From Bacteroidales bacterium Barb4 (GTDB taxonomy: Bacteria > Bacteroidota > Bacteroidia > Bacteroidales > Tannerellaceae): a stretch of DNA of 38,589 bases. How positions within the stretch are numbered: position 1 is the stretch's first letter; the number at the start of each line of letters is the position of its first letter. The notes below the pieces were generated by a model. It saw nothing but the letters and a program-made list of their open reading frames with translations, made no database searches and was not told the origin of the DNA. Location of the stretch: positions 1 through 38,589 of the forward strand of contig LBCX01000005.1 in the NCBI GenBank assembly GCA_001657575.1, written 5' to 3'. This document shows positions 10,062 through 35,100 of the stretch, in pieces. The position numbers and the translations under genes are program-made.

Positions 10062-10082
10062 AAAAAAACAATTAATAGAATA

Positions 10083-13950: not shown

Positions 13951-14223
13951 AGACTCTTTAGTTTATAGTGTTATTCACTGATGTTACGCAGCATCAGTTA
14001 CTAATTTTTGTGAATACAAATTGCTTGTATTCATTCCGATTTCATTGCACAAAGATAGATAATTCCACGTGTAAAATATGTTTTGTAACATAAAGTTTAT
14101 CTTGATCGTCATAGTGATATTTTACAACGCTTGCTGTTTGCTTCCTGCAATAATGTAGGACATGCTCCTCCATTTGTATGTAATTCATTTGTATTTATTT
14201 GATTATTACGGATATAAATTCAA
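13951..14223. other. Divergent regulatory region between nifA-like gene and nifV
   Basis: No gene lies here. Next to nifA there is a small hairpin, ACTGATGTTACGCAGCATCAGT-like (13978-13999), related to the foldback elements. Further right come CAAAGATA (14050-14057, complement TATCTTTG, a possible -7 element for nifA) and several TGTAA half-sites, among them the exact inverted pair described separately. Confidence 0.55.
14070..14126. promoter_or_regulatory. Spaced inverted sites TGTAAAATAT ... ATATTTTACA
   Basis: TGTAAAATAT at 14070-14079 and its exact reverse complement ATATTTTACA at 14117-14126 are separated by 37 bases in the shared nifA/nifV upstream region. The centres are 47 bases apart. 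The TGTAA half-site also appears three times as TACA-N4-TGTA ahead of anfH. It may be a dimeric regulator site. The factor is unknown and AT-rich chance similarity is possible. Confidence 0.35.
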
Positions 14224-15967: not shown

Positions 15968-17041
15968 TCAGGGTTGCGGATTTAGCAACTCTATAGCTTC
16001 CTCGTCCGTCATCTCATAATGGTCAAACTTCCAGAAGAACTCCTGCGTGATAGCCGTTAAGTCCTTTTCTCCATATATTTCGGGATACAGGAGATTGGAC
16101 AGCCAGACAATACCCATCAACCGGTTAATGCCCGGCGGTCGATCTATCCATCCGAAAGGTCGCCAAGGGACTTGATATACCTTGTTGTTCTTCACGGCAT
16201 TTAATTGCTGCCATGCGGAATTAGCTTTTATCTCCTTATAAGAATCCAAACCGTCGTGATTGCCTGACCATACCAAAATCAGTTCAGGTTGCCACACATA
16301 CAACTGCTCTAACGACACTGCCGACATTCCTTTTCCGGGCAATACATCGGTTTGAGCAACATTAATTCCTCCCAAGAGGTCAATCAACAGGCTGTGAACG
16401 GAGCCGGAAGGGTCTGTTTGCAAGCCTTTCATTCCTTCGGCGTAATAGATGGTTTTCTTTTGTTCGGCAGGGATAGTCTTTGCTTTTTCCAAGACAGGGT
16501 CGATATGGGTTTGAATAAAACCAATCAATTCGTTGGTTTTTTCCTCTTTGCCCAACACATCGCCCAAAAAAGCAAGTATCTCTTTGTATTTCGTAATATC
16601 CATGTCCATCAGAATAACCGGCAGCTGTGTCTTTTCCTGCAAGTCATTGACCGCTTCGATATTCTCCGGTGTAATAAATTGGGAATAGATGATAATATCG
16701 GGCTTGAGCTTGATAATTTCTTCTGCGACACCTTCAATAACGTAGGGCTTGCCTTCGTAAAACGAAGGTTTGAGATACTTCTTTTCGGCTTCGGTATATT
16801 CAAATACCCGATTGACCATTAAAGCCGTATCAACGGCATACACCATCATGACCGAATGACGGTCGATAAAAGCCCGCTCGATGTGCGCGGGTATCTCTAC
16901 CTGTCGTCCCGCCATATCGGTAATGATACGGGTGTCGGCAAGCGGCGTTTTCTGTTTGGGTTGGCAGGCAGCCAAAGCAAACAGGGCAAGCATGACGAAT
17001 GACCGTATGCTTGCCTGTCTGACGTTTGTTTTAGAAATCAT
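15968..17041 (-). CDS. Periplasmic binding lipoprotein of an iron-complex/metal ABC importer (SBP1)
   Basis: This is a class III (FecB/BtuF/TroA-like) solute-binding protein. A lipobox LAAC places the lipidated Cys at 26. The domain starts at ITDMAGRQVEIPAHIERAFI. KLKPDIIIYSQF and WQPELILVWSG mark the two lobes, and PFGWIDRPP at 295-303 precedes INRLMGIVWLSNLLYP. The same PFGWIDRPP motif is in SBP2 of this window but not in SBP3. Its start overlaps the end of the TonB receptor gene by 11 bases, so receptor and binding protein are one unit. Ligands of this fold include ferric siderophores, haem, cobalamin and, for MolA, molybdate. The sequence alone does not choose between them. Confidence 0.88.
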   Translation of the reverse strand: MISKTNVRQASIRSFVMLALFALAACQPKQKTPLADTRIITDMAGRQVEIPAHIERAFIDRHSVMMVYAVDTALMVNRVFEYTEAEKKYLKPSFYEGKPYVIEGVAEEIIKLKPDIIIYSQFITPENIEAVNDLQEKTQLPVILMDMDITKYKEILAFLGDVLGKEEKTNELIGFIQTHIDPVLEKAKTIPAEQKKTIYYAEGMKGLQTDPSGSVHSLLIDLLGGINVAQTDVLPGKGMSAVSLEQLYVWQPELILVWSGNHDGLDSYKEIKANSAWQQLNAVKNNKVYQVPWRPFGWIDRPPGINRLMGIVWLSNLLYPEIYGEKDLTAITQEFFWKFDHYEMTDEEAIELLNPQP

Positions 17042-19103
17042 ATACCACAGAGGTTAAAAAGGTTCTGCCTTCACGCGGATAATTCAAATGATAGGAGTAT
17101 TCCTTGTCGAAAAGATTTTTTACCCCGGCTTCCAAGCCAAAGCCGCTCCATACCTTCGTGGAGAGTTTGGCATTGACCAAACCAAAGCCGGGTAGAGTTT
17201 CACCTGCACTCGTATTGTAACGCTTGCTGTTCAACTCCCAGTCAATATGCAAATAGGTTTTAGGATGATTCGGCAAACTGAATTTGCCAAAGAATACCGC
17301 TTTATGTGCCGGCACATCGGTAAACTTCAAATCAGGGTTTTCTTTGTTCTCCCGATAGATGTAGCTGTAATTGGCTCCAAGAGTAAGTTCGTTAACAGGT
17401 CGGTAGCCCAAAGCTATTTCATAACCCGCAGCATAAGACTTGCCCACATTTTGGTTGGTAACCATTAAATTAATGCTATCCGGTCGATATTTCCCCGGAA
17501 TAGTGAGGGCATAGATGGCATTGTCTATTGCATTGTAAAATACCGATACCTCATATTGGAAGTTGGATTGAATGCTTCCTTTGTAGCTAAGGTCGAATAT
17601 CCAGCTAAACTCCGAAGCTAAGTCAGGATTGGGAACGGTAGTGCCAAAGCGACTGGAATAGCGTTCTTTCTGCGTGGCAAAACGTGACTTGCGGGAAGCT
17701 GACAGGCTGATTTCATGATTCTCTACGGGTGTATATACAGCAGCCAACTGATAATTAAACGCATCATCCGAGCCGGTCGGGAAATTCCATGCTACGTTTT
17801 TCTCGCCTGTCAGGTAATGCGTTCCGTATTCCTGTGCCTGATTATTTCCCCGATAACTGTAATTGATACCGGCAATAAGGTCGATGGATTCGTTGAGGCT
17901 GTAAACATCTTCCAAACCAACCGATACGGTATTGTCCAAATACTCCTGAATAGGCTCGCCTGTTTTTGCCAACTGACCGGTCGCCGTGTTCTCCGCTATG
18001 TCTGCATTGTGTTCTTTGTGTGAATCGTATTTCTCATACAAGGACAATTTCAGCAGATTGTTATTGAAATAAGACGAGCTAAAGTTGGCAGAACCGCCCG
18101 CAGAATAATCGTCATAGACACTTTGAAAAGCATTGTTTTTGTTTTGAAGGATATATCCGGCATCATCGTATTGCCCCATGATATTGTAGAACTTATCATA
18201 GAAAGCGGTAATAGACATCGAAGTCGTTTTTCCTAAAACTGTTTTGGAACGATAATAGACGCTGTTCTTATTATATTCGGGATAGCGGCGGTATAGTGCG
18301 TTGCCGTTGACGCCAATCGGTATTCCCTTTTCGGCATTCTGTACAATGACATTGAGAGAATACTCATCTGTGGCATTGGGGGTATAGCCGGCTTTGGCAC
18401 TAAACTTAAAATCTTCCGTATCGGAGTTTTCTCTTCGCCCACCGTCTTCATTTGTTCCCGCCGTAAACTTCTTGGGAAGCGAAAGGAAGGCATTGTCTAA
18501 ATAAGAAAGGCTTCCCAGCAGATAAAATTTCTCTTGCCTGGTGCCGATATTCGCCGATAAATTGTGACCGTTCAAACCTTCCCCACTTAACTTTAATCCC
18601 GATATGCCGGTTACTTCAAACGCCTTGACCGGTTTCCTCGAAACAAGATTGATAGCTCCGCCCATTGTGTTAGGCCCGTACAGGATTGAGGTTAAGCCTT
18701 TGGATACTGTTATCTGCGACAAGTCGAAAGTGGTAAATCGGTTAATATCCACATTGCCGTCATAGGGCACATAGATAGGAATACCATCGTAGAAAATGGG
18801 CGTTTGCAACGAACCAAAGCCTCGCAAGAAGATTTGCCCTTCGTTGCGTTCGCCGCCGCCGCCGGTAATTGTCAATCCGGGAAGCAGATTGGCAGCTTCA
18901 GTCAGATTTACCTTGTTAAACTCCAAGAACTGCGTTTCATTGACTTTGTTGGTCAATAGTTTGCCGGACTTGGTGCCAAAGACACTGATTTCACCTAATG
19001 TATAAACATTAGAGATAGAATCGCTTTGTGCATAAACGCTTGTAGCGATGCCAAATAAAAAGACTAACGACAGTGATAATGATAAAAATAGTTTCATACG
19101 CAT
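17031..19103 (-). CDS. TonB-dependent outer membrane receptor (TonB1)
   Basis: This is a 690-residue outer-membrane receptor for an iron complex, vitamin or similar metal ligand. A signal peptide ends about residue 25 (VYA before QSDSIS). The plug domain runs about 40-150 with LPGLTITGGGGERNEGQIFL and SILYGPNTMGGAINLVSRKP, and a 22-strand barrel ends LTSVVYDF, with a terminal aromatic as expected. It lacks the SusC N-terminal extension. It is followed directly by SBP1. Upstream lies the first of the two long repeat copies. Substrate unknown. Confidence 0.93.
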   Translation of the reverse strand: MRMKLFLSLSLSLVFLFGIATSVYAQSDSISNVYTLGEISVFGTKSGKLLTNKVNETQFLEFNKVNLTEAANLLPGLTITGGGGERNEGQIFLRGFGSLQTPIFYDGIPIYVPYDGNVDINRFTTFDLSQITVSKGLTSILYGPNTMGGAINLVSRKPVKAFEVTGISGLKLSGEGLNGHNLSANIGTRQEKFYLLGSLSYLDNAFLSLPKKFTAGTNEDGGRRENSDTEDFKFSAKAGYTPNATDEYSLNVIVQNAEKGIPIGVNGNALYRRYPEYNKNSVYYRSKTVLGKTTSMSITAFYDKFYNIMGQYDDAGYILQNKNNAFQSVYDDYSAGGSANFSSSYFNNNLLKLSLYEKYDSHKEHNADIAENTATGQLAKTGEPIQEYLDNTVSVGLEDVYSLNESIDLIAGINYSYRGNNQAQEYGTHYLTGEKNVAWNFPTGSDDAFNYQLAAVYTPVENHEISLSASRKSRFATQKERYSSRFGTTVPNPDLASEFSWIFDLSYKGSIQSNFQYEVSVFYNAIDNAIYALTIPGKYRPDSINLMVTNQNVGKSYAAGYEIALGYRPVNELTLGANYSYIYRENKENPDLKFTDVPAHKAVFFGKFSLPNHPKTYLHIDWELNSKRYNTSAGETLPGFGLVNAKLSTKVWSGFGLEAGVKNLFDKEYSYHLNYPREGRTFLTSVVYDF

Positions 19104-19611: not shown

Positions 19612-20355
19612 TTATTTATAAATATCTATATGTTCTCCAATAAAGAATACGAAAGGCGAAAGCATCTCCCGTTGGTCTATTACTTCAAAGACCGTATTCA
19701 TGGTAGCCTTGGCTACATCCTGATTTTTCAACGAAACCATTGCGGCAATCACTACCGGAATGTCTTCCCTTATGCCTTCTTCCTTAAATACTTCAAAAAT
19801 CCTTTTCAAATTATCGAACGCCATGTATAAGGCAACCGTCGTGCCGTGTTTGAACAGCTTGGCGATGTCGCGAATATGTGCATAGTCATCATTGATTTCA
19901 TAAGCAATCACATTCACTATCGCATTGCTTTTATGAATCTCCGTAGTAGGAATGGCAAAGAGGTTGGCAGCAGCGGCGGCAGCAGTCACTCCGGGCACTA
20001 ATTCAAAAGGGATACCCCATTCTTTCAGGATACGGGCTTCTACATCGCCGCCGTTAAACATCAAGGCATCACCGGCTTTCAGGCGAACTACCTTTTTCCC
20101 GTCCAAGTGATATTTTTTCACATATTCCAGAATATCTTCTTTCTTCTCTCCTTCTTCGGGATGCTTATTGATGTAAATAACTTCTGCCGAAGGGGCTGCT
20201 TTCAGCACATGCTCAGCCGGAAGGCAATCATAGAAGAGCACATCGGCTTCTTCAAGCAGTCGTTTGGCTTTGACAGTCAGTAAATCCGGATCGCCCGGGC
20301 CTGCGCCTACTATATGCACGGGGTAGCGGGTCATTTCTTTTGTCTCCATATTCAA
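19612..20355 (-). CDS. Tetrapyrrole methylase-family SAM methyltransferase (SUMT-like, divergent)
   Basis: The fold is that of uroporphyrinogen-III C-methyltransferase and cobalamin-pathway methylases (class III SAM methyltransferases). The N-terminal motif GAGPGDPDLLT (17-27) is canonical. The second motif reads RLKAGDALMF (91-100), where SUMT enzymes have RLKGGDPFVF, and the usual GRGGEE is replaced by NGGDVEA. PGVTAAAAAA follows. At 247 residues it is a stand-alone domain without a uroporphyrinogen synthase or CysG fusion. It is the last gene of the TonB2/SBP2 operon (28-base gap), an odd place for a housekeeping SUMT. It may act on an imported or secreted metal ligand, or serve siroheme/cobamide synthesis. 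The function is inferred at fold level only. Confidence 0.8.
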   Translation of the reverse strand: MNMETKEMTRYPVHIVGAGPGDPDLLTVKAKRLLEEADVLFYDCLPAEHVLKAAPSAEVIYINKHPEEGEKKEDILEYVKKYHLDGKKVVRLKAGDALMFNGGDVEARILKEWGIPFELVPGVTAAAAAANLFAIPTTEIHKSNAIVNVIAYEINDDYAHIRDIAKLFKHGTTVALYMAFDNLKRIFEVFKEEGIREDIPVVIAAMVSLKNQDVAKATMNTVFEVIDQREMLSPFVFFIGEHIDIYK

Positions 20356-20383
20356 TTGTTTATAATTAGGAACATTTGCTATT

Positions 20384-22438
20384 TCAAAAACTGCATCTCA
20401 CCCCTGCTTTTATTTCTCTGCCGAAATCGGGATAAACGGGTGAAACGGTTGAATAACGGGCATCAAACAGATTGCTAATCAGAGAATACAATTCGGTATG
20501 CAATGTATGAATGTGATAAATAAACTGCACGTCTGCATTGCAATAATTCCCCATATCGACTTCCTTTTTCAAAAACCGATCGGAACGGTAGCGCGAAACA
20601 TATTTTGCCATCCAGTGGATTTCCACGTTCTTTTTTTCAAATGAGAGGCAGGCGTTGGCTATTACCGGCGGTTGCTTGTCGTAGTGCGTTCTGCTCGACT
20701 GTTCGGAGCGGGAAACGTATTTGCAGGATATGTTTCCGAAGCCGCTGAACATATTAAGCCACGTGCTGCTGCGGTAAGAAAGTTCGATGCCGACAGTGCG
20801 CAAATCAATATTCCGCATATAATAGCGCAAAACGTCATTGTTGTCAAAATAGGGCGTGCGGGTATATTCGGAGGTATTTTTCTGATTCAGCAAAAAAAGT
20901 GTCCACGTGAGCTGTCCGGCTGCGGGAAGACGCTGTTGCAAACCGAGTTCAACGCCGGTGCGTATTTCGCCTTTCATATAGGAAACAAGTGTTTTGCCGG
21001 TGTTTTCATCTTTCAAGGGATTGCCGACGGCGTCGGTTTGTTGTTGCAGTGCGGTACGGTCGAGCGGAAGTGCGCCGCTGTTAATCACGCCATTCAGGAT
21101 ATAACCGCCATTCAGTTGATGTGAAACGCCTGCGCTAATGTTGAACAACACAGGTTGCCATTCTTTGGCAATGGCGTTTATTTCGCTGCCGAAACCCTGA
21201 TACGGAACGTAATAATCATAATATTCGCGAATGAATTTGGCACCAAGATGCACATCTGTCCGCCCGAATGTATGCTGGTCGAGAAGGCTTGCCGACAGCA
21301 TTTTCTTTTTCGATTTGCCGTGTGCATAATTGGCAGACGAGGCAAACATGGCACCTGCACGCACTACATTGTGTTCGACGGGCGAAAATGCCTGAAAAAC
21401 GGCTGCCGTAAAAATGGAATCAGGCTCGTTGAGCATTCGCTTTCGCACGATGGAGTCGGATAGTTCGATGACTTTGCCGGTGGAAGTAAAATGATAATGG
21501 TCGGGATACAAATCCATCCGGTTGAGGATGTAACTGAATTGCAATTCGGTGGCGGCTGATTTTGTTTCGTTGTATTTCACACGGGCGGTGGAAATGCTGT
21601 AGCGCATTGGGTCGTATTCCCATAAATCGGCAAGTTGGCTCTGCGGTGCGGCAAGACTGTCGAACACAGCCTGCGTGACAAAGCGCGTACCGTAGATGTA
21701 AGAACTTTCCAAATCGATTTCCAATTTATCTTTGTATTGATAGCCGATTTTCCCATAGAAATTCCATAGATTTTCATCGCTGTGCCTCCTTTTTGCGCCG
21801 TCTGTGCGGTCGTTGAAAAGGGAAAAAGCATAATGCAGATTTTTCATTTTTCCGCCATGTAATGCGCCCGCGTGCAGGGTGTTGAACGTGCCGTAACTTA
21901 CTTCCGCTTGTGTGGTGGGCTTGTTGAACGTTTTTGTTTTTACGTTGATAACGCCGTTCAGCCCACTAAATCCGAGCAAGAGCGAATTGCCAGAGCGCAC
22001 TATTTCGACCGACTCTATCATGCTTTCGGGCAAAAGTGCGGGAGCTTCCACCCATTCCGCCATAGGCCCCGCACCGTTGGTAGAGAGCGAAACACCGTTG
22101 ACGGCATAGTCGGATGCCACATTTTGCCCGCGCAGGAGATAATAGTGTTTCTTGCGCCGCCCCTGCGTGGAAGCCACGCCATTGACCGAATATTTCAGTG
22201 CATCAAACAAATGATGCGCTGCCGTTTTGCGATTGTCGTCAGCCGTGATGCAGGTGATAGATGTTTCCCAAGCCAAAGGCTCTACCGTAAGTTCTTTGAG
22301 CGGCGAAACACGGTGGCGACCTGTTACCGTTACTTCCGGCAACGCATGAACTTGCAACGTATCGCCATGCTCTTTTTGAGCAAATGCCGTTGTTGAAAGC
22401 AAAAGGATGAATGCCGTATATATCAGTTTTATTTCCAA
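20384..22438 (-). CDS. TonB-dependent outer membrane receptor (TonB2)
   Basis: This is a 684-residue receptor. A signal peptide ends near residue 20 (AFA before QKEHGD). The TonB-box region is followed by VTVTGRHRVSPLKELTVEPL. The plug contains LLRGQNVASDYAVNGVSLST and LLLGFSGLNGVINVKTKTF, and the barrel ends EIKAGVRCSF. The gene lies between SBP2 (15 bases upstream) and the SUMT-like gene (28 bases downstream). It is unlike TonB1 and TonB3 in plug sequence, so the three receptors probably recognise different ligands or different forms of one ligand. Confidence 0.92.
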   Translation of the reverse strand: MEIKLIYTAFILLLSTTAFAQKEHGDTLQVHALPEVTVTGRHRVSPLKELTVEPLAWETSITCITADDNRKTAAHHLFDALKYSVNGVASTQGRRKKHYYLLRGQNVASDYAVNGVSLSTNGAGPMAEWVEAPALLPESMIESVEIVRSGNSLLLGFSGLNGVINVKTKTFNKPTTQAEVSYGTFNTLHAGALHGGKMKNLHYAFSLFNDRTDGAKRRHSDENLWNFYGKIGYQYKDKLEIDLESSYIYGTRFVTQAVFDSLAAPQSQLADLWEYDPMRYSISTARVKYNETKSAATELQFSYILNRMDLYPDHYHFTSTGKVIELSDSIVRKRMLNEPDSIFTAAVFQAFSPVEHNVVRAGAMFASSANYAHGKSKKKMLSASLLDQHTFGRTDVHLGAKFIREYYDYYVPYQGFGSEINAIAKEWQPVLFNISAGVSHQLNGGYILNGVINSGALPLDRTALQQQTDAVGNPLKDENTGKTLVSYMKGEIRTGVELGLQQRLPAAGQLTWTLFLLNQKNTSEYTRTPYFDNNDVLRYYMRNIDLRTVGIELSYRSSTWLNMFSGFGNISCKYVSRSEQSSRTHYDKQPPVIANACLSFEKKNVEIHWMAKYVSRYRSDRFLKKEVDMGNYCNADVQFIYHIHTLHTELYSLISNLFDARYSTVSPVYPDFGREIKAGVRCSF

Positions 22439-22453
22439 TTCAAGTATAATAGT

Positions 22454-23485
22454 TTAATTATTTATTAGATAAGCAATGTCTTTATCTGTTATTTCCACGT
22501 GATAAAACAAGCGGAAATACTCTTTCAATGCCGCATTCAAATCAAAGCTGACATTTTCAGGATAAAGTTGCTTTGCCAGCCACAGAACACCGGACAGGCA
22601 ATTGCTGCTTGGCGGGCGGTCAATCCACCCGAAAGGCAAGGCGGGAACTTGGTGCACCTTTTTATTTCGGGCAGCGGCGACTTGTTGCCATACTGCATCG
22701 GTGAGGATATATTCCCGTGTGGTGAGTTCTTTTTTCGCTGTTTTGGGCAAGTCCATTCCGGCAGGAAAACCTGACCACGCAACGATTACATCGGGTTGCC
22801 ATTGTAAAATCTGCTCTATGCTTACAGCCGCCATTCCGTGAATACTGCCCGTTTTCACTTGCGCCACATTGCGGGCATTGAGATAATCAATCACCTGACT
22901 GTGCAATGACTCCGCCGCTTCGGTGTTCAAGCCGCGATTGCCTTCGGCATAATAGACTGTCGGACGTTTGGCTATTTTCTTCGTCTGCCCGTTGAGCGGA
23001 ATAATGTATTTATCCAAAAAGTCAATAATTTGATTTGCCGAAGCCGGGCGATTCAATGCCTGTCCGAGGAAAGTGTATGCTTCGCGATATTTCGGCAGCT
23101 CAAACTTCACGAGCAGTACGGGAATATGCAGTTTTGCCTGCATACCTTCGGCAGTTTCGCGGTCGTCATCGTCCAAAAAAGAGAGCAGAATTACGTCCGG
23201 GCGCAGTTTCAATATTTCTTCGGCATTTGTTTCTGCCAAAGGTTTATCGCAATAGGCTTTTGAAATATATTTTTGTCCTGCATCGGGAACGCTGAATGTG
23301 GAGTTGCACAGCATTTCCTCGTCCAATGCAAACGCCATAAGCGATATAAATCTGTCGGTAAACACCTTGTTTACGGTAGTCGGCAGGCTTACTTTTCGCC
23401 CCGCCATGTCCGTTACGGTGCGCGTTTGAGCGGTTATAGCCATACAGACAAAAAACAGCAGGCTAAATAAGGTTGTTCGTTTCAT
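22454..23485 (-). CDS. Periplasmic binding protein of an iron-complex/metal ABC importer (SBP2)
   Basis: This is a class III solute-binding protein of 343 residues with a cleavable, non-lipid signal peptide (AITA before QTRTV). It resembles SBP1 throughout: VTDMAGRKVSLPTTVNKVF at the start, LKLRPDVILLSF, VYYAEGNRGLNTEAAESLHS and PFGWIDRPP at 284-292 followed by WLAKQLYP. Gene order relative to its receptor is reversed compared with SBP1/TonB1 (here the binding protein precedes the receptor), which argues against a simple tandem duplication. Ligand unknown. Confidence 0.88.
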   Translation of the reverse strand: MKRTTLFSLLFFVCMAITAQTRTVTDMAGRKVSLPTTVNKVFTDRFISLMAFALDEEMLCNSTFSVPDAGQKYISKAYCDKPLAETNAEEILKLRPDVILLSFLDDDDRETAEGMQAKLHIPVLLVKFELPKYREAYTFLGQALNRPASANQIIDFLDKYIIPLNGQTKKIAKRPTVYYAEGNRGLNTEAAESLHSQVIDYLNARNVAQVKTGSIHGMAAVSIEQILQWQPDVIVAWSGFPAGMDLPKTAKKELTTREYILTDAVWQQVAAARNKKVHQVPALPFGWIDRPPSSNCLSGVLWLAKQLYPENVSFDLNAALKEYFRLFYHVEITDKDIAYLINN

Positions 23486-23497
23486 ACATGTTGATTT

Positions 23498-24274
23498 TTA
23501 ATTTTTCATCGAATAAACCCACAAATCGTGTATCCTCACTGCGCGGTTGATACCGTCATTCACGGGTGTTTCCCTGCCGGTGAGAGCGGGTGTGAATTTC
23601 AGTTGCACGTTCTTCTCATTCATTTCTACTGTAAAAACTTCGCCTGCATCAGGGTCTGACGGCAGATAGTCGCCCACTTTTGTGAAATTGCCTGCCCCTT
23701 CCGTCTTTTTCCAAAGCGAAACGCCCGATACATCTTCAATTTTCCCGCCAAGCGAAACGGAAAACCGCACTTGCGACACCGAAGGCAACACCGAAAGCAG
23801 CATTTGTGCGTCAGAGTCATGTTGCCCACATTCGTAAAAAATGGTCTGTTGCAAGGCTACAAAGCCGGTGCTCACTTCCGAGTCCACACTGCCGGTGGGT
23901 GTTCCGCACACGGGATTAACGGCAAAGTCTTTAAGCGTATATGCCACCGAAAAACCATTGTACTCCGCCATGCGAGGTTTTGAAGGCACATACATCACCA
24001 TTGCGGTAGTCATTTGGTCGGCTTCGCAGTCGCCGGTCGGAGGATTGTCATAGCCTTCGCGTTTCCACGATTGAAAGTTCTCGTGAAAAACCAGCGAGCC
24101 GTCGGCAGCGTATTCGCCCTCATTAACCGGCGGCGTTATTGCCACATCATCTTCCTCCGACAGCCCTGCAAAACGGTAGCCCGAATCTTTCTCGCAAGAA
24201 GAAAAGAAAAAGCAGAGCAGAAGAATGACTGTCTGCTTTTTCCAATTAGTTATTTCAAAATTTCCAATCATCAT
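23498..24274 (-). CDS. Surface lipoprotein of unknown family in the uptake operon
   Basis: A lipoprotein signal peptide, ILLLCFFFSSC, gives a mature start at Cys27. The acidic stretch SEEDDVAITP soon after would favour surface export in Bacteroidota. The body is beta-rich (VFHENFQSWKREGYDNPPTG, FSVSLGGKIEDVSGVSLWKK) and ends IHDLWVYSMKN. It looks like a jelly-roll or adhesin-type sandwich and not like an enzyme. Three or four conserved-looking Cys (C81 region, VCGTP, ECGQH) may form disulfides. Its place between the TsaA-like gene and SBP2, with gaps of 3 and 12 bases, suggests a ligand-capturing accessory comparable in role to surface proteins of cobalamin or haem uptake systems. I do not recognise the family. 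Confidence 0.75.
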   Translation of the reverse strand: MMIGNFEITNWKKQTVILLLCFFFSSCEKDSGYRFAGLSEEDDVAITPPVNEGEYAADGSLVFHENFQSWKREGYDNPPTGDCEADQMTTAMVMYVPSKPRMAEYNGFSVAYTLKDFAVNPVCGTPTGSVDSEVSTGFVALQQTIFYECGQHDSDAQMLLSVLPSVSQVRFSVSLGGKIEDVSGVSLWKKTEGAGNFTKVGDYLPSDPDAGEVFTVEMNEKNVQLKFTPALTGRETPVNDGINRAVRIHDLWVYSMKN

Positions 24275-24277
24275 TTT

Positions 24278-24769
24278 TTATTTAAACCGATTATCGGAAC
24301 GGACGTTGCTACACTGTGCGTGCGCCGCCTTATCAAGCCAGCCGGATTTTGTGTCGGCGGGGCTGTCGTATTTCGGAAAATAGGGCTTGATGTCTATCAG
24401 CGGCGTTTCGTTGAGCATATCCGCCCCTTCGAAAACAATGGTATTGCCTTCTATCGAAAGAATGCGCACGGTGGAAATGCCGATGTGGTTCGGACGTTTC
24501 GGAGCACGGGTGGCAAATATGCCGTGCGGTTTCGTATCCATAAACGGAATGGGCATCAGCACATAACCTTCCGCTTTGTGAAAATGATAGATAAGCGTTG
24601 CGTGCGAAAAACCATCCAAGTCGGTCAATCCTTCAACGTATTCATTTCTTAACACGGCTTTGCCTGTAACGCCTGCCGCACCTGCCGGTTGCACCGGCAT
24701 TCCGTCTATTTGTTCGTGCGGCGTGTAAATCGTGCCTATCGGCTCAAGAATTATTTGTTGCATACTCAT
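24278..24769 (-). CDS. TsaA/TrmO-domain protein (class VIII SAM-dependent methyltransferase-like)
   Basis: TrmO methylates t6A37 of threonine tRNA in Escherichia coli, and related TsaA-like domains exist with unknown substrates. Family motifs are clear: PIGTIYTPH (10-18), TRAPKRPNHIGIS (87-99) and DIKPYFPKYD (126-135). The start is placed at ATG 24769 (MSMQQIILEP). The longer frame to 24805 overlaps the preceding gene and adds an unlikely basic extension. At 163 residues it lacks the C-terminal extension of E. coli TrmO. It is tightly packed in an uptake operon (gaps of 3-4 bases). With the SUMT-like protein this makes two SAM-type methyltransferase folds in one transport locus. Confidence 0.85.
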   Translation of the reverse strand: MSMQQIILEPIGTIYTPHEQIDGMPVQPAGAAGVTGKAVLRNEYVEGLTDLDGFSHATLIYHFHKAEGYVLMPIPFMDTKPHGIFATRAPKRPNHIGISTVRILSIEGNTIVFEGADMLNETPLIDIKPYFPKYDSPADTKSGWLDKAAHAQCSNVRSDNRFK

Positions 24770-24773
24770 TATT

Positions 24774-25976
24774 TTATTTAACCTGTATTTTCTTTGCCTT
24801 ATCATTCACTCTTACGATATAAATACCTGTTGCAGGCACAGCAATCGTTTCCGTATCCGATTTTGCCAAAACGGTTGCGGCAATGTGTCCGTTGATTTGA
24901 TAAACCGTAACAATGCTTCCGGGCGTTACATTTTGTAGAATAACGGACTTGTTTCCGCTGAAAGCAACCCAAGCCGGCACTGTTTCAGGCAAGTTAATAC
25001 CGTTAGTGCCCGTATTTAATGCGATTATTGCTGCCGCAATCTCTTCCGCCGTAACCTCTGTGTTATACAGTACCGCCTTTGCGGCATCCAGAGCCGGCTG
25101 TCCGGCTTGCGAACCTTCTATTGCTTCGGCTAATTCAAACTTCCTGTCTGCCGCCGAGCGGTAGGGGTAATGATAGACAACCCACGACAATTTCTCGCTT
25201 TTCACCGGCGTAAGGGCTGTGAGTTTGATATAGGGATTGTCGGAATTGTCTCCGTCTGTCAATTCAAGCGTATAGCCGACTTTTTGCAAAGTGTCTGCAT
25301 TTGCTGCGGCGGTAAGCGTGGTAAAATGCGTCAGAGCCGTCATAGTGTTGTAACTATGGCTGTGAATCGTAAAATATTCCCTTGCCAGATAGCCGTCAGG
25401 GTTTGTGCTGACAGAACTTTGCGCCTGCAAGAAGTTCATGCTGCGCACAAGCGGAACAGACGACATTCGACAGGTTACGCTTGCCGGCGTAGTGGTAGTG
25501 CCGATAGTGGAACTTACCGTTTCCAACGCCAAACCGGTAGGCTGAATGCTGCTTATTGGGATAAGTTTTACCGCATGACCTTCCAAATCTTTTATCCCCT
25601 GTATTAGGCTGTCCGCATCTGCTGCTGTGATAGTCAGCACGGAAGATGCCTGAGCCGTTCCATCGCCGGTAAGCGTGATGTCCAGAATACTTGCATCAAG
25701 CGCATTAACACCAAACTCCACCGCGTGGTTAGATGCCATATTGATAACAAATTGGCTTGCCAAGGTTTCGGCATCTGCATGGATGGAAATACTGCTGTCA
25801 AACTTGATTTGAATGTGATTAATCTGCACATCTCCAAGGTCGCTCGGAACGATTGTCGCCGTTAAACCGTTGTTTGAATCCCAAAGTTTATAGCCTACGG
25901 ATTGGGTGGCTTTTGCGGTGAAAGAACTTACTGTTGCTAACACACTCAATACTACCAATAAAGTAAATCTTCTCAT
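24774..25976 (-). CDS. Secreted protein with type IX secretion-like C-terminal sorting tail
   Basis: A signal peptide (MRRFTLLVVLSVLATVSSFT, AKA before TQS) is followed by a Thr/Ser-rich beta-type body of about 260 residues, then a short helical module with ALDAAKAVLYNTEVTAEEIA resembling FIVAR repeats (about 285-330). The last 70 residues have the look of a type A sorting domain (VTVYQINGHIAATVLAK then VPATGIYIVRVNDKAKKIQV). If a type IX system is present it would be displayed on the cell surface. It belongs to the uptake operon (23 bases after the Cys-rich gene, 4 before the TsaA-like gene). Function unknown. A surface binder of the imported compound is a reasonable guess. Confidence 0.8.
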   Translation of the reverse strand: MRRFTLLVVLSVLATVSSFTAKATQSVGYKLWDSNNGLTATIVPSDLGDVQINHIQIKFDSSISIHADAETLASQFVINMASNHAVEFGVNALDASILDITLTGDGTAQASSVLTITAADADSLIQGIKDLEGHAVKLIPISSIQPTGLALETVSSTIGTTTTPASVTCRMSSVPLVRSMNFLQAQSSVSTNPDGYLAREYFTIHSHSYNTMTALTHFTTLTAAANADTLQKVGYTLELTDGDNSDNPYIKLTALTPVKSEKLSWVVYHYPYRSAADRKFELAEAIEGSQAGQPALDAAKAVLYNTEVTAEEIAAAIIALNTGTNGINLPETVPAWVAFSGNKSVILQNVTPGSIVTVYQINGHIAATVLAKSDTETIAVPATGIYIVRVNDKAKKIQVK

Positions 25977-25999
25977 TACATTTTTTGTTTTTATGTTTT

Positions 26000-26371
26000 T
26001 TAGAAATTTGCATCCATTGCTCGTTGCCGGGCTTCTTTCTTATCTTCTTCTGTCAGCATTCCATTACGAAAATCGGCAAACCATGGACCAATAAAGCGAT
26101 TGAGGAATTTGAATGTCGCCGATTTCTCTTCCAATCCTGTTTTCATAAACCGAATGCACCCTTTGCAATACGTTTTCCGCACGACTTGTTTTTTAGCATC
26201 GATGTCGTTACACCAAGCCAAGAACTGCATTCCCCAAACCAGCGGGTCTCTCACTAAATGAAAATACCAATGCTTTTGATAGCACTTTTGTGCTAACAAC
26301 TCAGCGCAACCCCGACACAAAACCGGAACATCGGCAGTTATGGGCGTATCCTTTATTTGTTCTTTACTCAT
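26000..26371 (-). CDS. Small Cys-rich protein of unknown family
   Basis: This is a 123-residue soluble protein with no signal peptide. Two CxxC pairs (C19/C22 and C69/C72) plus C30 and C54 suggest a bound Zn or Fe-S cluster. Trp/Phe-rich patches (WYFHLVRDPLVWGMQFLAW) and a charged C-terminus follow. Its start overlaps the end of SBP3 by 8 bases, so translation is probably coupled to the periplasmic binding protein. I do not recognise the family. The CxxC spacing does not fit NifQ (CX4CX2CX5C) or typical ferredoxins. A cytoplasmic metal-handling or ligand-release role is inference from context. Confidence 0.75.
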   Translation of the reverse strand: MSKEQIKDTPITADVPVLCRGCAELLAQKCYQKHWYFHLVRDPLVWGMQFLAWCNDIDAKKQVVRKTYCKGCIRFMKTGLEEKSATFKFLNRFIGPWFADFRNGMLTEEDKKEARQRAMDANF

Positions 26372-27401
26372 TATTCATTGTTTTAGGTGCTTGCCCTTTA
26401 ATAATCATTTCAGCCTCCTCCTTAGTCAATGGATAATTAAAGAAAGAATGATAGAAGAATACAGTCTCTTTTACCGCATCAAAACTTTTAAACTTGTCGG
26501 GATAAAACTTCTGTGCAGCCCATTGTATTTGCAGGGCTTCTTCTGCGCTGTATCTGTCCCACGAAAAAAGCCCTTTCGGATTGATGTAAATCCGCTTGTT
26601 TTTCCCTGCTTTGGTATTTTTTAGAGCCGGATTAGACAAGACATCCTGCTCTTTTATTTCCACATAAGAGCCGGCATAAATGATGATATCGGGATTCCAC
26701 AGCAGGATTTGTTCCGAAGATACCTGTTTGCTGTTTTCTACATTCACGGCAGCATTGACGCCTCCGCACAACTTTATCCATGCGCCAATTATCATGTTGT
26801 TTCCGCTGACAGTAATGGGAGACAGCGAGGTGATATGTAATACTTTGGGCTTTTTGCTTTCGGGAATTTTATTAGTTACCAGCTGTATATTCCTTATATT
26901 ACTGTCTAAATAAGCAACGTATTTTTCCGCTTTGGGTTTAGCATTTCCACCGAGTACATCGGCGGTGGTCAATACGCACTCACGCAATCCGGGGAAATCG
27001 GAGAACGATAATTCTACAACTGTATATCCCATGCGACTGATTGCGTTCGAATTGGCGTGCATCTTCGTTAAGAATACCAAATCGGGTTTAGCCTTGATTA
27101 ATTCTTCCATCGAATTATCGCCATTAGAAGCAAAAGTAGTCACTGCCTTTTCCATCGGCGGATTGATTTTGTAAAACCACGGACACATACGCTTGCTGAC
27201 ACTCGTTGCTACAATCTTATCACCTTGCCCCAACATATAGACTATCATGTTATGGGCAGGCCAGACGTCTGCTATCCGATTGATTTTAGTTGGCACGGCT
27301 ACTTGTACTCCGTCCACATTGACGGGACGAGTCTGTGCCTGTCCATCAGGGATAAAGAGGGACAGAAAAAGCAGGCTCAGTATTATTTTCATTGCTTTCA
27401 T
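26364..27401 (-). CDS. Periplasmic binding protein of an iron-complex ABC importer (SBP3)
   Basis: This is a class III solute-binding protein of 345 residues with a cleavable signal peptide (GQA before QTRPV). Features include KRMCPWFYKINPPMEKAV with a Cys near residue 73, IKAKPDLVFLTKM, ITVSGNNMIIGAWIKLCGG, WNPDIIIYAGSY and GLFSWDRYSAEEALQIQWAA near the C-terminus. It belongs to a different subgroup from SBP1 and SBP2, which carry PFGWIDRPP. It follows its receptor TonB3 by 9 bases. An iron complex is the default ligand guess, but molybdate, haem or cobamide are not excluded. Confidence 0.88.
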   Translation of the reverse strand: MKAMKIILSLLFLSLFIPDGQAQTRPVNVDGVQVAVPTKINRIADVWPAHNMIVYMLGQGDKIVATSVSKRMCPWFYKINPPMEKAVTTFASNGDNSMEELIKAKPDLVFLTKMHANSNAISRMGYTVVELSFSDFPGLRECVLTTADVLGGNAKPKAEKYVAYLDSNIRNIQLVTNKIPESKKPKVLHITSLSPITVSGNNMIIGAWIKLCGGVNAAVNVENSKQVSSEQILLWNPDIIIYAGSYVEIKEQDVLSNPALKNTKAGKNKRIYINPKGLFSWDRYSAEEALQIQWAAQKFYPDKFKSFDAVKETVFFYHSFFNYPLTKEEAEMIIKGQAPKTMNNE

Positions 27402-27410
27402 ATTGTCCTG

Positions 27411-29561
27411 TTAGAAAAGGACTCTTACAGAAACTTTTATTTCACGGGGAGAGCCAAGAAAGGCACTGTAACTGTTGCCGTTTCCATTGATGCTACCCGG
27501 AAAGATGGATGCCCAATACTTTTGATTTGTCAGGTTAGTAGTTTGCAAATTCCATATAACACGTGTTTTAAGAAACGAAGTGGTATAACGCAAGCCCAAG
27601 TCGAAGGTTGTGTATCCGTCAATTTCGGTCGTATTAATATCATTAGCCGCCTTTGCTCCGGCATGATGCACATTTCCGTTTATCGACAAATTACCTTGAA
27701 CAGGAAGTTGATATTCTACAAACAAGTTACCTTGCAGTTTAGGAACGCCGACTACATCTTTGTTGGAAGTTGCCTCAATGCCTGTATCTTTTAATTTCGG
27801 GTTGAGGTAAGTCAGTCCGCCGATAAAATGCAAACGTTTGTACGCAACATCGCCATAGATTTCTACACCTGTATTTTCTTGTGTGCCTTGCAATTTATAC
27901 GTATTATCTGCCGGGTCAACAAAAGGATACGGACGACTCAAATCGAATAGTGCTATGCCCGCACCAATGCCCGGGAAAGCCACTTTATATCCCAATTCGT
28001 ATTGTTTACAGCGATAGGGGTCTAAAAGTTGGTCTTCATTGGCAGTGCCTTTTGGAGCGAGTGAACCTTGTTGCACCACGTCGCTATAAGTCCCGTAAAC
28101 AGTCATATTGTCCAACGGTTTATACAGTAAACTTGCGGAGTAACAAAAAGCATTGTCATCATAACCACCGGTCTTGTCTCCTATGCGAGAATAACTTTCG
28201 TTCTTAATTTGATTGTAGCTCAATGACAGCATTGTAGAGAAATGATTATTAAACGTGACATCATCACCCAAGTTGAAAGACTGTTGGGTATTTTGTGATC
28301 CATGATAATGCCCGTCCACCGGTGGGAGTTGCGGTTGAGGATAAGTGACAGGCGTATAAATACCGGCTTTCCCCAGGGGAATATTTTTAGAAGCATTGGC
28401 GTTGTATATATCCCAAACGAAACCCGTTGTACCAATCACTACATTGTGCAATACTTTTCCTGTATAAATCAAACCATTGACAACTATGCGGTTGCTCAAT
28501 ATTTTGAATCGTCCGGCACCGGAAGAAGCATTTAAGGCAGAAGAAATGCTGTCGTCGGGCGTGAAGGTATTACCCGGATTAAGCATCCCTCTATCTACTG
28601 TTTGACTCAATATGCCGGCTACTATTTTCCATTGGTCATTAATAGCGTATTTAACATTGGCATTGGCGGTTACTGTTCGCAAATCCATACCAGCCCACTC
28701 CAGACCGTAGCCGATTTTATTTGGGTCAATATCCTTGGGTATTTGGATAGCCGTTCCGTAGGAAAAACCGCCCGGATAACCGTATTGTTTGTAGTTGTAA
28801 CGACTGAGGTTTGTTTCGATAGTCAGATTGTTGTACTTGGCATCAAATGCCGCTCCAATGAATGTGCGGTTAAGATTGCTGTAGTCGGCAAACCCTTCGC
28901 CATCGGCATACAAGCCGTTAATGCGAAAGCCATACGATTTATTCTTATCGTCATTTATAAAATAGCGGTGACTCAAGTCGGCATGATAGGTGCCAATACC
29001 TTGCGTTTGGTAAGCGATACTCACATCGCCAACCGGTTTATCCAATACTCGCTTTGAAGAATAATTGAACGATCCCGCCGGACTTGCGGGACCATACAAC
29101 GAGCCTGCAATACCGTTCAGTACTTCAAAACGGTCGAATTGTTCCATCGGATAGGCGGTTGTGCTGACAATATTCAAACCGTCTAAACGGCTACACTCCA
29201 CTACCGATCCTTGAAAACCGCGTGTTTGCGGACGACCCACCTCTAATCCTCCGCGTGCTTCTATTTGCATGGAAGGCATATATTTGGAAACTTCGTTCAG
29301 GCTGTTTACCTGAAGATTTTTCATCATGTCAGAAGTAAGTGTGGAAATAGAATACGGAACATCCAGCAAACGCAAATTACTCCAAGGTCCGACACCAATG
29401 ATGCTGTCGGTGTAGGAAATGTTTTTTAAGCGATAGGCTACTACTTCTACCGTTTGCAAATTCACCTCTTTGTCGTAAGTCTCCGCTTTTTCTGTGTTTT
29501 GTGCAGACATATAGCCAACGCTTACAGCTAATAACATTAATGCAATCCGAATTTTCTTCAT
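27411..29561 (-). CDS. TonB-dependent siderophore-type receptor (TonB3)
   Basis: This is a 716-residue outer-membrane receptor whose plug carries siderophore-receptor marks: VPYSISTLTSDMMKNLQVNS, TRGFQGS, FDRFEVLNGIAGSLYGPASP and AGSFNYSSKR. The signal peptide ends about residue 20 (MSA before QNTEK). The barrel ends PREIKVSVRVLF with terminal Phe. Of the three receptors in the window it is the most like FhuA/FpvA-type siderophore transporters. It lies between the ATPase gene (100 bases upstream) and SBP3 (9 bases downstream). Confidence 0.93.
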   Translation of the reverse strand: MKKIRIALMLLAVSVGYMSAQNTEKAETYDKEVNLQTVEVVAYRLKNISYTDSIIGVGPWSNLRLLDVPYSISTLTSDMMKNLQVNSLNEVSKYMPSMQIEARGGLEVGRPQTRGFQGSVVECSRLDGLNIVSTTAYPMEQFDRFEVLNGIAGSLYGPASPAGSFNYSSKRVLDKPVGDVSIAYQTQGIGTYHADLSHRYFINDDKNKSYGFRINGLYADGEGFADYSNLNRTFIGAAFDAKYNNLTIETNLSRYNYKQYGYPGGFSYGTAIQIPKDIDPNKIGYGLEWAGMDLRTVTANANVKYAINDQWKIVAGILSQTVDRGMLNPGNTFTPDDSISSALNASSGAGRFKILSNRIVVNGLIYTGKVLHNVVIGTTGFVWDIYNANASKNIPLGKAGIYTPVTYPQPQLPPVDGHYHGSQNTQQSFNLGDDVTFNNHFSTMLSLSYNQIKNESYSRIGDKTGGYDDNAFCYSASLLYKPLDNMTVYGTYSDVVQQGSLAPKGTANEDQLLDPYRCKQYELGYKVAFPGIGAGIALFDLSRPYPFVDPADNTYKLQGTQENTGVEIYGDVAYKRLHFIGGLTYLNPKLKDTGIEATSNKDVVGVPKLQGNLFVEYQLPVQGNLSINGNVHHAGAKAANDINTTEIDGYTTFDLGLRYTTSFLKTRVIWNLQTTNLTNQKYWASIFPGSINGNGNSYSAFLGSPREIKVSVRVLF

Positions 29562-29661
29562 CTCTTTATAATTTAGTGAATTAATATTATGCTTTCAATA
29601 GGTTATGTGAAATCTCAAATTTCGCTATAACGAAATGAATAACGCATGTCAAAAAAATTTA

Positions 29662-30438
29662 CTAATCCAAAACAGGCAGGCAAATCTTTCGGGAAGACTC
29701 TGCGCTTGCGGTACATATTTTCACATTCACGTCGTAGATGTCTTTCAACACCTCTTCGGTGATTACTTCCTTACTGTCTCCTTGTTTCCAAATCATTCCG
29801 TTGTGAATGACAGCGACATCCGCTTCGCACATAAAAGCATGGTCGGGCGAATGAGTAGCCATCAGGATGCCCAAAGAATCGTTCTTCAGCTTATTTACCT
29901 GATTGATTATTTTCAGTTGATTGCCGAAGTCCAAACTCGAAGTCGGCTCGTCCATAATGAGAAAAGACGGTTGCTGTGCCAAGGCGCGTGCCACAATCAC
30001 CATCTGTTGTTCGCCACCGCTTAATTGCGTAAAGACGCGGTCTTTCAAGTAAGTGATTTGCAGTTTCTCCAAACATTCTTCTGCTATCATCCGGTCTTTT
30101 TTCCCCGGAGATGAGAAAACAGACAGGTGGGCGGTTCTTCCGAACAATACCACATCAAACACCGTAAACGGAAAAGGTAAAGAGCGGGCTTGCGGCACAT
30201 AAGCCACGGCATGGGCAAACTGACGGCGATTCCATTCGCCGATGTTCTTCCCGTCAAGCGATATAGTCCCTTTCAACAGCGGAAGTATGCCTAAGACAGA
30301 TTTGAAGAGCGTCGTTTTTCCTGCTCCGTTCTTACCTAATATACAGGTCGTCTTGTCGGTATGCAGTTCCAAACTGACATTCTTCAGAACCTCTTTCTGC
30401 GGATAACCCAAAGTCGCATTGTGTATCTTTAATAACAT
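29662..30438 (-). CDS. ABC transporter ATPase of the FepC/BtuD type
   Basis: This is a cytoplasmic ATPase subunit for iron-complex or cobalamin-type import. Walker A GKNGAGKT is at 35-42, Q-loop YVPQ at 80-83, signature LSGGEQQ at 139-145, Walker B LIMDEP at 160-165 and H-loop His196. At 258 residues it is usual size. It heads the minus-strand uptake block. Strikingly, no FecCD/BtuC-type permease gene occurs anywhere in the window, although three binding proteins do, so the membrane subunit must be encoded elsewhere. Upstream is about 1.07 kb of non-coding sequence, divergent from anfH. Confidence 0.93.
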   Translation of the reverse strand: MLLKIHNATLGYPQKEVLKNVSLELHTDKTTCILGKNGAGKTTLFKSVLGILPLLKGTISLDGKNIGEWNRRQFAHAVAYVPQARSLPFPFTVFDVVLFGRTAHLSVFSSPGKKDRMIAEECLEKLQITYLKDRVFTQLSGGEQQMVIVARALAQQPSFLIMDEPTSSLDFGNQLKIINQVNKLKNDSLGILMATHSPDHAFMCEADVAVIHNGMIWKQGDSKEVITEEVLKDIYDVNVKICTASAESSRKICLPVLD

Positions 30439-31485: not shown

Positions 31486-32334
<849 letters not shown>

Positions 32335-32355
32335 TCATCAAAAAAGAGATAAATT

Positions 32356-32673
32356 ATGAAAATGATCAGGGCTATCGTCCGCCCCGAAATGGCGGACAAT
32401 GTAACCGAAGGTTTGGCGGAAGCCGGTTTTAATTCCATGACCAAATCGCCGGTCTTCGGACGGGGGAAGCAAAAGGGACTCACGGTAGGATCAGCGCATT
32501 ATGACGAAATTCCCAAAATGCTGATTATTATAGTTGTGGAAGATGATGTGGTTGATGATGCGCTGAAGCTCATCCAATACAAGGCATATACGGGAAATGA
32601 AGGCGACGGTAAAATATTTGTTTCTCCGGTAGAAAAAGTACTCACGGTACGGACAGGTTCAAAAGAACTCTAA
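32356..32673 (+). CDS. nifI1: PII-family nitrogenase regulator NifI1
   Basis: This is a GlnB-like trimeric sensor of 105 residues beginning MKMIRAIVRPEMADNVTEGL and ending GDGKIFVSPVEKVLTVRTGS, the conserved PII beta-alpha-beta ends. NifI1 and NifI2 together bind nitrogenase and block its activity when ammonium is available, relieved by 2-oxoglutarate, as shown in methanogens. The T-loop segment FGRGKQKGLTVGSAHYDEIP lacks the uridylylated Tyr context of GlnB. Placement between H and D genes is the signature of NifI and not of housekeeping PII. Confidence 0.93.
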   Translation: MKMIRAIVRPEMADNVTEGLAEAGFNSMTKSPVFGRGKQKGLTVGSAHYDEIPKMLIIIVVEDDVVDDALKLIQYKAYTGNEGDGKIFVSPVEKVLTVRTGSKEL

Positions 32674-32685
32674 AATCAACCGGAA

Positions 32686-33057
32686 ATGAAAGAAATCATA
32701 GCATTTATCCGCCCCAGTAAAATGAGTGCCACCAAAAAGGCACTTGATGCACTTGATATTCCTTCCGTTACCGCTATTCCGGTATTGGGACGCGGAAATC
32801 AGCGGGGACTCAACACCACTTTGAGCGGCATTGACATCCCCCAGAAATTACTGGCACAAAAACGGACAATGGGTATGAAATTCATACCCAAGCGAATGTT
32901 GGTAATTGTTGCCAAAGACAAAGACGTGGACGCAATTATAGGAGCTCTTGTGAAAGCAAACTGGACAGGCTACATCGGCGACGGCAAGATATTCGTTTGC
33001 CCGACCGATGACGCCCTCCGCGTGAGAACCAATGAAACCGGATACGCCGCATTGTAA
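32686..33057 (+). CDS. nifI2: PII-family nitrogenase regulator NifI2
   Basis: This second PII-like subunit has 123 residues, starting MKEIIAFIRPSKMSATKKAL, with a longer T-loop (LGRGNQRGLNTTLSGIDIPQ then KLLAQKRTMGMKFIPKRML) as expected for NifI2, and a C-terminal GYIGDGKIFVCPTDDALRVR. It acts with NifI1 in post-translational switch-off. It lies 12 bases after nifI1 and 24 before anfD, and is co-transcribed. Confidence 0.93.
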   Translation: MKEIIAFIRPSKMSATKKALDALDIPSVTAIPVLGRGNQRGLNTTLSGIDIPQKLLAQKRTMGMKFIPKRMLVIVAKDKDVDAIIGALVKANWTGYIGDGKIFVCPTDDALRVRTNETGYAAL

Positions 33058-33060
33058 TAG

Positions 33061-34689
<1,629 letters not shown>

Positions 34690-34695
34690 ACCAAA

Positions 34696-34715
34696 CAAGG
34701 GAGCATGCTCCCTTG
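34696..34715. promoter_or_regulatory. 20-bp perfect palindrome between anfD and anfG
   Basis: CAAGGGAGCATGCTCCCTTG sits 6 bases after the anfD stop and 16 before the anfG start. It would form a very stable RNA hairpin inside the operon. No T-run follows, so it is more likely a processing, stability or attenuation element than a full terminator. Confidence 0.7.
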
Positions 34716-34731
34716 ATAATACAATAAAGAT

Positions 34732-35088
34732 ATGAACGAAAAGACAGCTCAGGAAAGAATGGAGCAATTGGAATGGTACATCACCAAACATTGTCTGTGG
34801 CAATACAATTCGCGCGGTTGGGACAGGGAAATGCAAAACGAACACATCCTCGGAAAGACCAAACAGTTGTTGTGCGGAGAAAATGCAAGGAAAGAAGACA
34901 CGTATGCTGACCGCTACTATTGGTGCGAAGCCAAAACATTGGTCGAGGCATTCAAAAAATATTTCCCATGGCTGAATGAAATGGACAAAAAAGACATCGC
35001 CACAGTCATACACCTGCTGAAAGAGAAAATGGATTACACCATGATTAAAGGTTCCCTGAATCAGGAACTGACAAAAGAAAAATATTAA
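34732..35088 (+). CDS. anfG: Iron-only nitrogenase delta chain
   Basis: AnfG is the small subunit found only in V- and Fe-nitrogenases, binding AnfD on the outside of the complex. The protein has 118 residues with the family features QLEWYITKHCLWQYNSRGWD, ENI-like QNEHILGKTKQLLCGE, DRYYWCEAKTLVEAFKKYFP and a C-terminal helix. Size and position between D and K are exactly as expected. It is the strongest single marker here that this is not a molybdenum enzyme. Confidence 0.95.
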   Translation: MNEKTAQERMEQLEWYITKHCLWQYNSRGWDREMQNEHILGKTKQLLCGENARKEDTYADRYYWCEAKTLVEAFKKYFPWLNEMDKKDIATVIHLLKEKMDYTMIKGSLNQELTKEKY

Positions 35089-35100
35089 AATCGAAAGAAT

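Follow-up and report, generated by a model that had tools for sequence, protein, structure and literature searches.

A tightly packed uptake gene cluster with two predicted AdoMet-binding proteins near an Fe-only nitrogenase in a Bacteroidales genome: a probable MolBCA-like molybdenum or tungsten import system

Organisation of the locus

We analysed 38,589 nt of contig LBCX01000005.1 (assembly GCA_001657575.1; Bacteroidales bacterium Barb4, Tannerellaceae), hereafter the window, to which all positions refer unless another contig or locus is named. The subject is a cluster of uptake genes that also encodes a single-domain TsaA/TrmO protein and a protein resembling uroporphyrinogen III methyltransferase (SUMT), and which probably serves import of molybdenum (Mo) or tungsten (W). 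An earlier note had described at 19612-30438 closely packed uptake genes together with a TsaA gene and a gene of tetrapyrrole methylase fold, and open reading frames (ORFs) with Pfam and NCBIfam models recovered all ten of the named genes, co-directional on the minus strand. Reading from 30438 down to 19612, these encode an ATP-binding cassette (ABC) ATPase, TonB1, FecB1, a Cys-rich protein, a protein with a type IX secretion system (T9SS) sorting tail, TsaA, a lipoprotein, FecB2, TonB2 and the SUMT-like protein, with successive gaps of 100, 9, -8, 23, 4, 3, 12, 15 and 28 bp, such that only the ATPase and TonB1 genes are separated by more than the -8 to 28 bp found from TonB1 to the SUMT-like gene. 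The domain scan gave a TP_methylase at 146 bits, TrmO_N at 125 bits, two Peripla_BP_2 domains, two TonB receptors, a FecE-type ATPase and the T9SS tail. The gene set extends beyond 19612 to FecB3 at 15968, as a 508-bp gap is followed by TonB3 and FecB3 (15968-19103), two genes that accompany the SUMT-like gene in relatives. The merged set comprises three modules, A, B and C, that are found apart in other genomes:

29662..30438, minus strand: FecE/MolC-type ABC ATPase, module A, an orphan with its permease on contig C446 (ABC_tran 111 bits)
27411..29561, minus strand: TonB1, siderophore-type TonB receptor, module C (TIGR01783 229.7 bits, cut-off 223.5)
26364..27401, minus strand: FecB1, class III substrate-binding protein, module C (Peripla_BP_2 95 bits; nearest solved proteins 4ovk, 4hn9 and MolA)
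26000..26371, minus strand: Cys-rich protein of 123 aa with 6 Cys, module C (no Pfam/NCBIfam match)
24774..25976, minus strand: T9SS-tailed secreted protein, module B (TIGR04183 23.1 bits, cut-off 23; kept with TsaA in loci L048-L050)
24278..24769, minus strand: single-domain TsaA/TrmO_N protein, module B (PF01980 125 bits; TIGR00104 103.7, cut-off 93.25)
23498..24274, minus strand: lipoprotein, module B (no Pfam/NCBIfam match; orthologues 64-76% identical in L048-L050)
22454..23485, minus strand: FecB2, MolA/4pag-like binding protein, module B (nearest solved proteins 4pag, 4ovk and HI1472 MolA; 41% identical to FecB3)
20384..22438, minus strand: TonB2 receptor, module B (Plug domain 39 bits; orthologues 73-82% identical in L048-L051)
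19612..20355, minus strand: SUMT-like protein of methyltransferase fold, module A (PF00590 146 bits; neither SUMT cut-off reached; lacks equivalents of NirE Arg111, Glu114 and Arg149)
17031..19103, minus strand: TonB3 receptor, module A (PF00593 91 bits, Plug 69 bits; 42% identical to a Capnocytophaga receptor)
15968..17041, minus strand: FecB3, MolA/4pag-like binding protein, module A (51% identical to a Capnocytophaga FecB; best solved matches by profile 4pag, 4ovk and MolA HI1472)

The window holds no permease gene, and the matching FecCD gene lies on contig C446 of the same genome, behind nifENB. By alignment, the TsaA start is more likely at 24769 than at 24805. The Cys-rich protein has one homologue in 125 same-family genomes, likewise behind FecB1. 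AlphaFold models of the sorting-tail protein (predicted local distance difference test score, pLDDT, 58 from 5 sequences) and of the lipoprotein (pLDDT 47 from 4 sequences) were not good enough to search for related folds, and an Rfam scan of the window gave nothing at gathering score.

Runs of 21-bp palindromic repeats of the CTAAGCGCTTAG type occupy the intergenic regions 19104-19611 and 30439-30850, which precede TonB3 and the ATPase gene respectively.

Modules in related genomes

Module A, which consists of the SUMT-like protein, TonB3, FecB3, the FecE ATPase and the FecCD permease, recurs in other genomes in the order FecCD-FecE-SUMT-TonB3-FecB3. All five genes are present in L102 and L215-L217, and most or all of them in L100, L101, L103 and L104, some of these loci being cut by contig ends; in L104, FecB2 is situated behind FecB3. 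Module B (sorting protein-TsaA-lipoprotein-FecB2-TonB2) is kept in L048, L049 and L050, and its sorting protein and TonB2 were also called in L051, while module C (TonB1-FecB1-Cys-rich) stands as its own block in genome G100. Within the family, five other genomes have a SUMT-like gene and four others a TsaA orthologue, with zero overlap between the sets, and at order level G288, G202 and G305 have both, at separate places. Apart from the window, direct linkage of TsaA and the SUMT-like gene was found in one locus of one named Capnocytophaga genome, Capnocytophaga leadbetteri L148, which reads TsaA-FecCD-FecE-SUMT-TonB-FecB-MoaD, followed by divergent moaCB-moaE-moeB. The earlier expectation of one recurrent system is thus upheld as to recurrence and not as to a direct link outside L148, as relatives hold two modules with a common putative operator.

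Molybdenum and nitrogenase genes accompany these modules. In L100, L101, L103 and L104, a ModE-like gene stands at the head of module A or beside it, and L104 also contains nifH. Of the Bacteroidales genomes that carry module A or B, 12/12 of those tested have nitrogenase genes, a count that covers carriers only. Beside the window cluster itself lies a set of nitrogenase genes:

31510..36489, plus strand: Fe-only nitrogenase, comprising anfH, two P-II-like genes, anfD, probable anfG (34732-35088) and anfK

All three models scored past their cut-offs (AnfD TIGR01861, 1021 bits against 873.8; AnfK TIGR02931, 894.6 against 853.85; TIGR01287, 451.9), and by the AnfD and AnfK models this nitrogenase is of the Fe-only type, as had been proposed. 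A Mo-nitrogenase set is also encoded in the genome, at another place.

Permease, ATPase and binding proteins

The genome holds only two full FecCD genes, on contigs C446 (L202) and C95 (L203). On C446 the order is nifK (partial)-nifE-nifN-nifB-p193-ModE-like-FecCD, with no ATPase beside that FecCD gene, whereas the C95 FecCD gene is followed by its own ATPase. Permeases from loci with a complete module A share 55-66% identity with the C446 permease, and the window ATPase is 48-69% identical to ATPases encoded next to FecCD and a SUMT-like protein in L148, L100, L102, L103 and L215-L217. We infer that the orphan window ATPase and the orphan C446 permease work together. The best PDB match of the C446 permease is MolB HI1471, which scores 250 bits where the runner-up scores 182 (by profile, 304 against 223), while the C95 permease, taken as a control, prefers BtuC (142 against 131 for MolB). 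For FecB3 and FecB2, the nearest solved proteins include MolA ahead of binders of B12, haem and siderophores.

These features resemble MolBC-A of Haemophilus influenzae (HI1470-HI1472), which likewise combines a type II FecCD-family permease, a FecE-type ATPase and a class III binding protein, includes the nearest solved relative of the C446 permease, and is likewise associated with molybdenum genes (PMC3928620, PMC4031551). MolBC-A imports molybdate, and MolA binds molybdate and tungstate (PMC4031551). MolBC-A is described as a low-affinity system, and the cited papers mention with it neither a TonB receptor nor an S-adenosylmethionine (AdoMet) enzyme; the system described here is split over two loci.

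Between nifB and the ModE-like gene of C446, L202:5936-6517 encodes a 193-aa protein without a known family.

The SUMT-like protein

The SUMT-like protein falls under both NCBIfam SUMT cut-offs (TIGR01469, 178.4 against 185; NF004790, 179.1 against 198). It is one of three TP_methylases in the genome, which is 94.9% complete; the others are an RsmI-like protein and a HemC-CobA-HemD-type fusion that clears both cut-offs (221.2 and 228.8). As this true SUMT is encoded elsewhere in the genome, the window copy is not the only SUMT of the cell, in line with the earlier suspicion that it is no housekeeping gene. It shares with SUMT, CobA and NirE the fold, the AdoMet motif and equivalents of NirE K102 and D105, but in an alignment to NirE and relatives the positions of Arg111, Glu114 and Arg149 are occupied by Gly, Val and Ile. 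In NirE, change of R149 abolishes activity, R111K removes 94% of it and E114Q 84% (PMC4731766). Equivalents of these three residues are gone in 9/9 transporter-linked SUMT-like proteins, all of which read GDA-x-MFNGG. These nine form a single clade (support 100/99) that sits in transporter operons rather than siroheme, B12 or haem operons, in contrast to the 18 class-level SUMT matches inspected, which retain the Arg of an FGRG-type motif and many of which adjoin siroheme- or sulphite-reductase-type genes; the genome's own true SUMT, however, has His at position 111, though E114 and R149 are kept. Because the three equivalents are lost while the AdoMet motif stays, the window protein is predicted to bind AdoMet, and methylation of uroporphyrinogen III by it is unlikely. 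Intermediate forms occur in L218 and L219, and a class-wide search for the clade among 395 genomes returned only the window and G288 again, the other matches inspected being ordinary SUMTs. The clade is one that automatic annotation would name SUMT despite the loss of substrate residues. A role in siroheme supply within molybdenum cofactor (Moco) operons, as reported for sumT in Flavobacterium (PMC12758843), was considered and dropped, as motif and clade are unlike the siroheme-type SUMTs examined.

The single-domain TsaA protein

The window TsaA is the one TrmO_N copy in the genome, and 112/125 same-family genomes have no TrmO_N match. Its close relatives within the order measure ~160 aa and have one domain, which sets them apart from two-domain TrmO. 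As in TrmO/YaeB and archaeal AF0241, a beta-barrel AdoMet domain with conserved AdoMet-site residues is present and the TrmO model cut-off is reached, but unlike TrmO/YaeB the protein has no C-terminal DPRxxY domain: it ends ~28 residues past TrmO_N, and the Pfam scan shows nothing beyond that domain. Among solved structures, the closest relative is AF0241 (2nv4), also of one domain, the crystal of which contained AdoMet. Kimura et al. (2014) noted that archaeal single-domain proteins lacking the C-terminal DPRxxY domain, which is linked to tRNA binding, may have another target (PMC4132733). The earlier view that TsaA is not a housekeeping enzyme gains from the missing C-terminal domain and from the relatives without any TrmO_N, and loses from the absence of a second copy in this genome.

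In bacteria and archaea together, mod, mop, modE, nif or moa genes lie near single-domain TsaA in 26/120 loci, compared with 0/20 two-domain TrmO loci (p=0.012), the former rate being approximate, as the panel of hidden Markov models was partly built from the same loci and the 120 contain a small number of duplicated or truncated loci along with two weak nifV-type matches. TsaA also recurs with NifX-like/DUF134/ParA-type clusters. We regard the molybdenum association as a lead to the target of single-domain TsaA proteins, a question that dates back to 2014 or earlier (PMC4132733), and the locus gives these proteins a testable context.

Order-level Bacteroidales genomes also contain a third TrmO_N class, with ORFs of ~370 aa, beside the single-domain and two-domain forms.

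A palindrome shared by molybdenum-linked promoters

The palindrome CTACATNNATGTAG came from a search for dyads in the upstream regions of L101 and L102. Exact copies lie upstream of nifH in the genome under study and in Paludibacter (L117), and the genome's own modA is preceded by two 1-mismatch copies, 31 bp apart. The palindrome also occurs upstream of ModE in L103, SUMT and nifH in L104, FecCD in L215, and module B in L048 and L050. With up to 2 mismatches and within 350 bp upstream, it was present at 11/17 Mo-linked promoters (those of modules A and B, nifH and modA among them) and at 3/366 control regions, two of the three positive controls having been fetched for carrying the palindrome. 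Without the discovery pair and these preselected controls, the counts are 9/15 and 1/364 (p=1e-13), a value that overstates certainty because the promoter set was hand-chosen and is not independent by descent. In the whole genome the palindrome occurs at 10 places with up to 1 mismatch, 4 of them exact, compared with 4 for a reversed control. Binding by a ModE-like protein would fit, since in L101 and L103 the palindrome lies in front of the ModE-like gene itself. The window has a single copy, before nifV:

14145..14158, no strand assigned: putative operator CTACATNNATGTAG with 2 mismatches, upstream of nifV

Scans of NifA upstream activating sequences gave chance-level results, as did those of sigma-54 sites overall, with one exact site before nifV. 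This sigma-54-type promoter, TGGCACAGATATTGCA, lies at 14224-14239, and the nifV start is probably an ATG near 14274 and not the TTG at 14199.

Further exact copies of CTACATNNATGTAG occur in L284 (C551:7118 and 7149, a pair 31 bp apart as at modA) and L283 (C465:5016). The C551 pair lies upstream of a 437-aa ATP-grasp-like ORF, and these may be unrecognised regulon members.

Discussion

The transport core encoded here is recognisable as a known type, and taken together the gene content, the recurrence of the modules, the closeness of the permease to MolB and the common palindrome argue that the locus probably encodes a TonB-dependent, type II MolBCA-like import system for Mo or W, as oxyanion or chelate, built from modules of a Mo/nif regulon. 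Under Mo (or W) shortage, TonB3, and also TonB2, would carry Mo or W species across the outer membrane, FecB3 and FecB2 would capture the ligand in the periplasm, and the C446 FecCD permease paired with the window FecE ATPase would import it, with ModE-type control tying import to nif and modABC. Cytoplasmic, AdoMet-binding accessory enzymes is what the SUMT-like protein and TsaA would be, most likely acting on the imported or a co-produced ligand, and they would probably alter a carrier ligand or assist metal release; sensing or tRNA roles are possible. Module C may bring iron. The earlier proposal that metal supply is linked to the nitrogenase is supported; the metal indicated is Mo or W rather than iron or a tetrapyrrole, and the SUMT-like protein has lost the uroporphyrinogen residues.

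Mo often limits nitrogen fixation. What emerges is a defined set of genes with a putative operator and two proteins predicted to be AdoMet enzymes, in the cultivated genus Capnocytophaga and in nitrogen-fixing Bacteroidales. In Rhodobacter capsulatus, Mo-limitation transporters and anf genes are similarly under one Mo-responsive control (ModABC and the MopA/MopB regulon), but the transporter class there is another (ModABC, MorABC) and no TonB receptor is described (PMC6925177). Our search of the open-licence literature turned up neither a transporter of MolBCA type that combines a TonB receptor with two accessory proteins of methyltransferase fold, nor TonB-dependent Mo import with a dedicated receptor.

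Several observations weigh against an assignment to Mo or W. The genome already encodes ModABC. The likeness to MolA is distant; MolA ranks third for FecB3, FecB2 and FecB1, behind 4pag, 4ovk or 4hn9, and the better matches 4pag and 4ovk name no ligand. Module C looks siderophore-like. The ModE-like protein of C446 is short (116 aa), reaches 81.1 bits with its best model, TIGR00637, under the curated cut-off of 98.5, and had no molybdate-binding domain that we could find. The window operon is without the palindrome, the best sites upstream of the ATPase, TonB1 and TonB3 genes having 4-5 mismatches, and as the only window copy is the one before nifV, the merged operon may be controlled otherwise. 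Finally, in Desulforapulum (L151, 8922-10501) a CbiK-like cobaltochelatase gene directly precedes single-domain TsaA and genes for TonB and FecB come after it, which is a cobalt and tetrapyrrole context.

A more specific proposal is that the SUMT-like protein and single-domain TsaA are dedicated AdoMet enzymes that build or unload a molybdophore, meaning a Mo/W-binding small molecule that enters via a TonB receptor. We hold this only tentatively and would sooner expect it to fail; if true, it would constitute a new TonB-dependent pathway of Mo acquisition, co-controlled with nif and mod genes.

The cluster could instead take up ferric siderophores to supply nitrogenase with iron, the Mo genes being incidental neighbours. 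TonB1 clears the siderophore-receptor model, FecB-type proteins mostly bind iron-siderophores and the adjoining nitrogenase is Fe-only, but modules A and B go with ModE-like genes, Moco genes and a palindrome common to modA and nifH, and the permease is nearest to MolB. As such, iron uptake is an unlikely account of the whole cluster, and may apply to module C alone. We consider it still less plausible that a tetrapyrrole or corrinoid is taken up and modified in the cell by the SUMT-like enzyme, as the earlier note read the locus: the TP_methylase fold, the use of this transporter class by B12 and haem systems and the cobaltochelatase-like neighbour of TsaA in L151 are outweighed by the uniform residue loss in the transporter-linked clade, by a permease that favours MolB above BtuC and haem permeases, and by neighbours that are Mo genes. 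Incidental clustering of an ordinary tRNA m6t6A methyltransferase with a spare siroheme enzyme fits the sole TrmO_N copy and its score with the TrmO model, but is the least probable account in view of the many family genomes without TrmO_N, the missing domain tied to tRNA binding (PMC4132733), two-domain TrmO without Mo-gene association, and the full HemC-CobA-HemD-type SUMT.

Other observations

Two more nitrogenase-like D/K protein pairs of this genome, L205 (C413) and L200 (C444), are distant in sequence from nif and anf (~20-27% identity). Within the window, 6000-11000 is an AT-rich island (28-34% GC) with a 1013-aa P-loop NTPase-like ORF and a Fic-like ORF, and is possibly foreign DNA.

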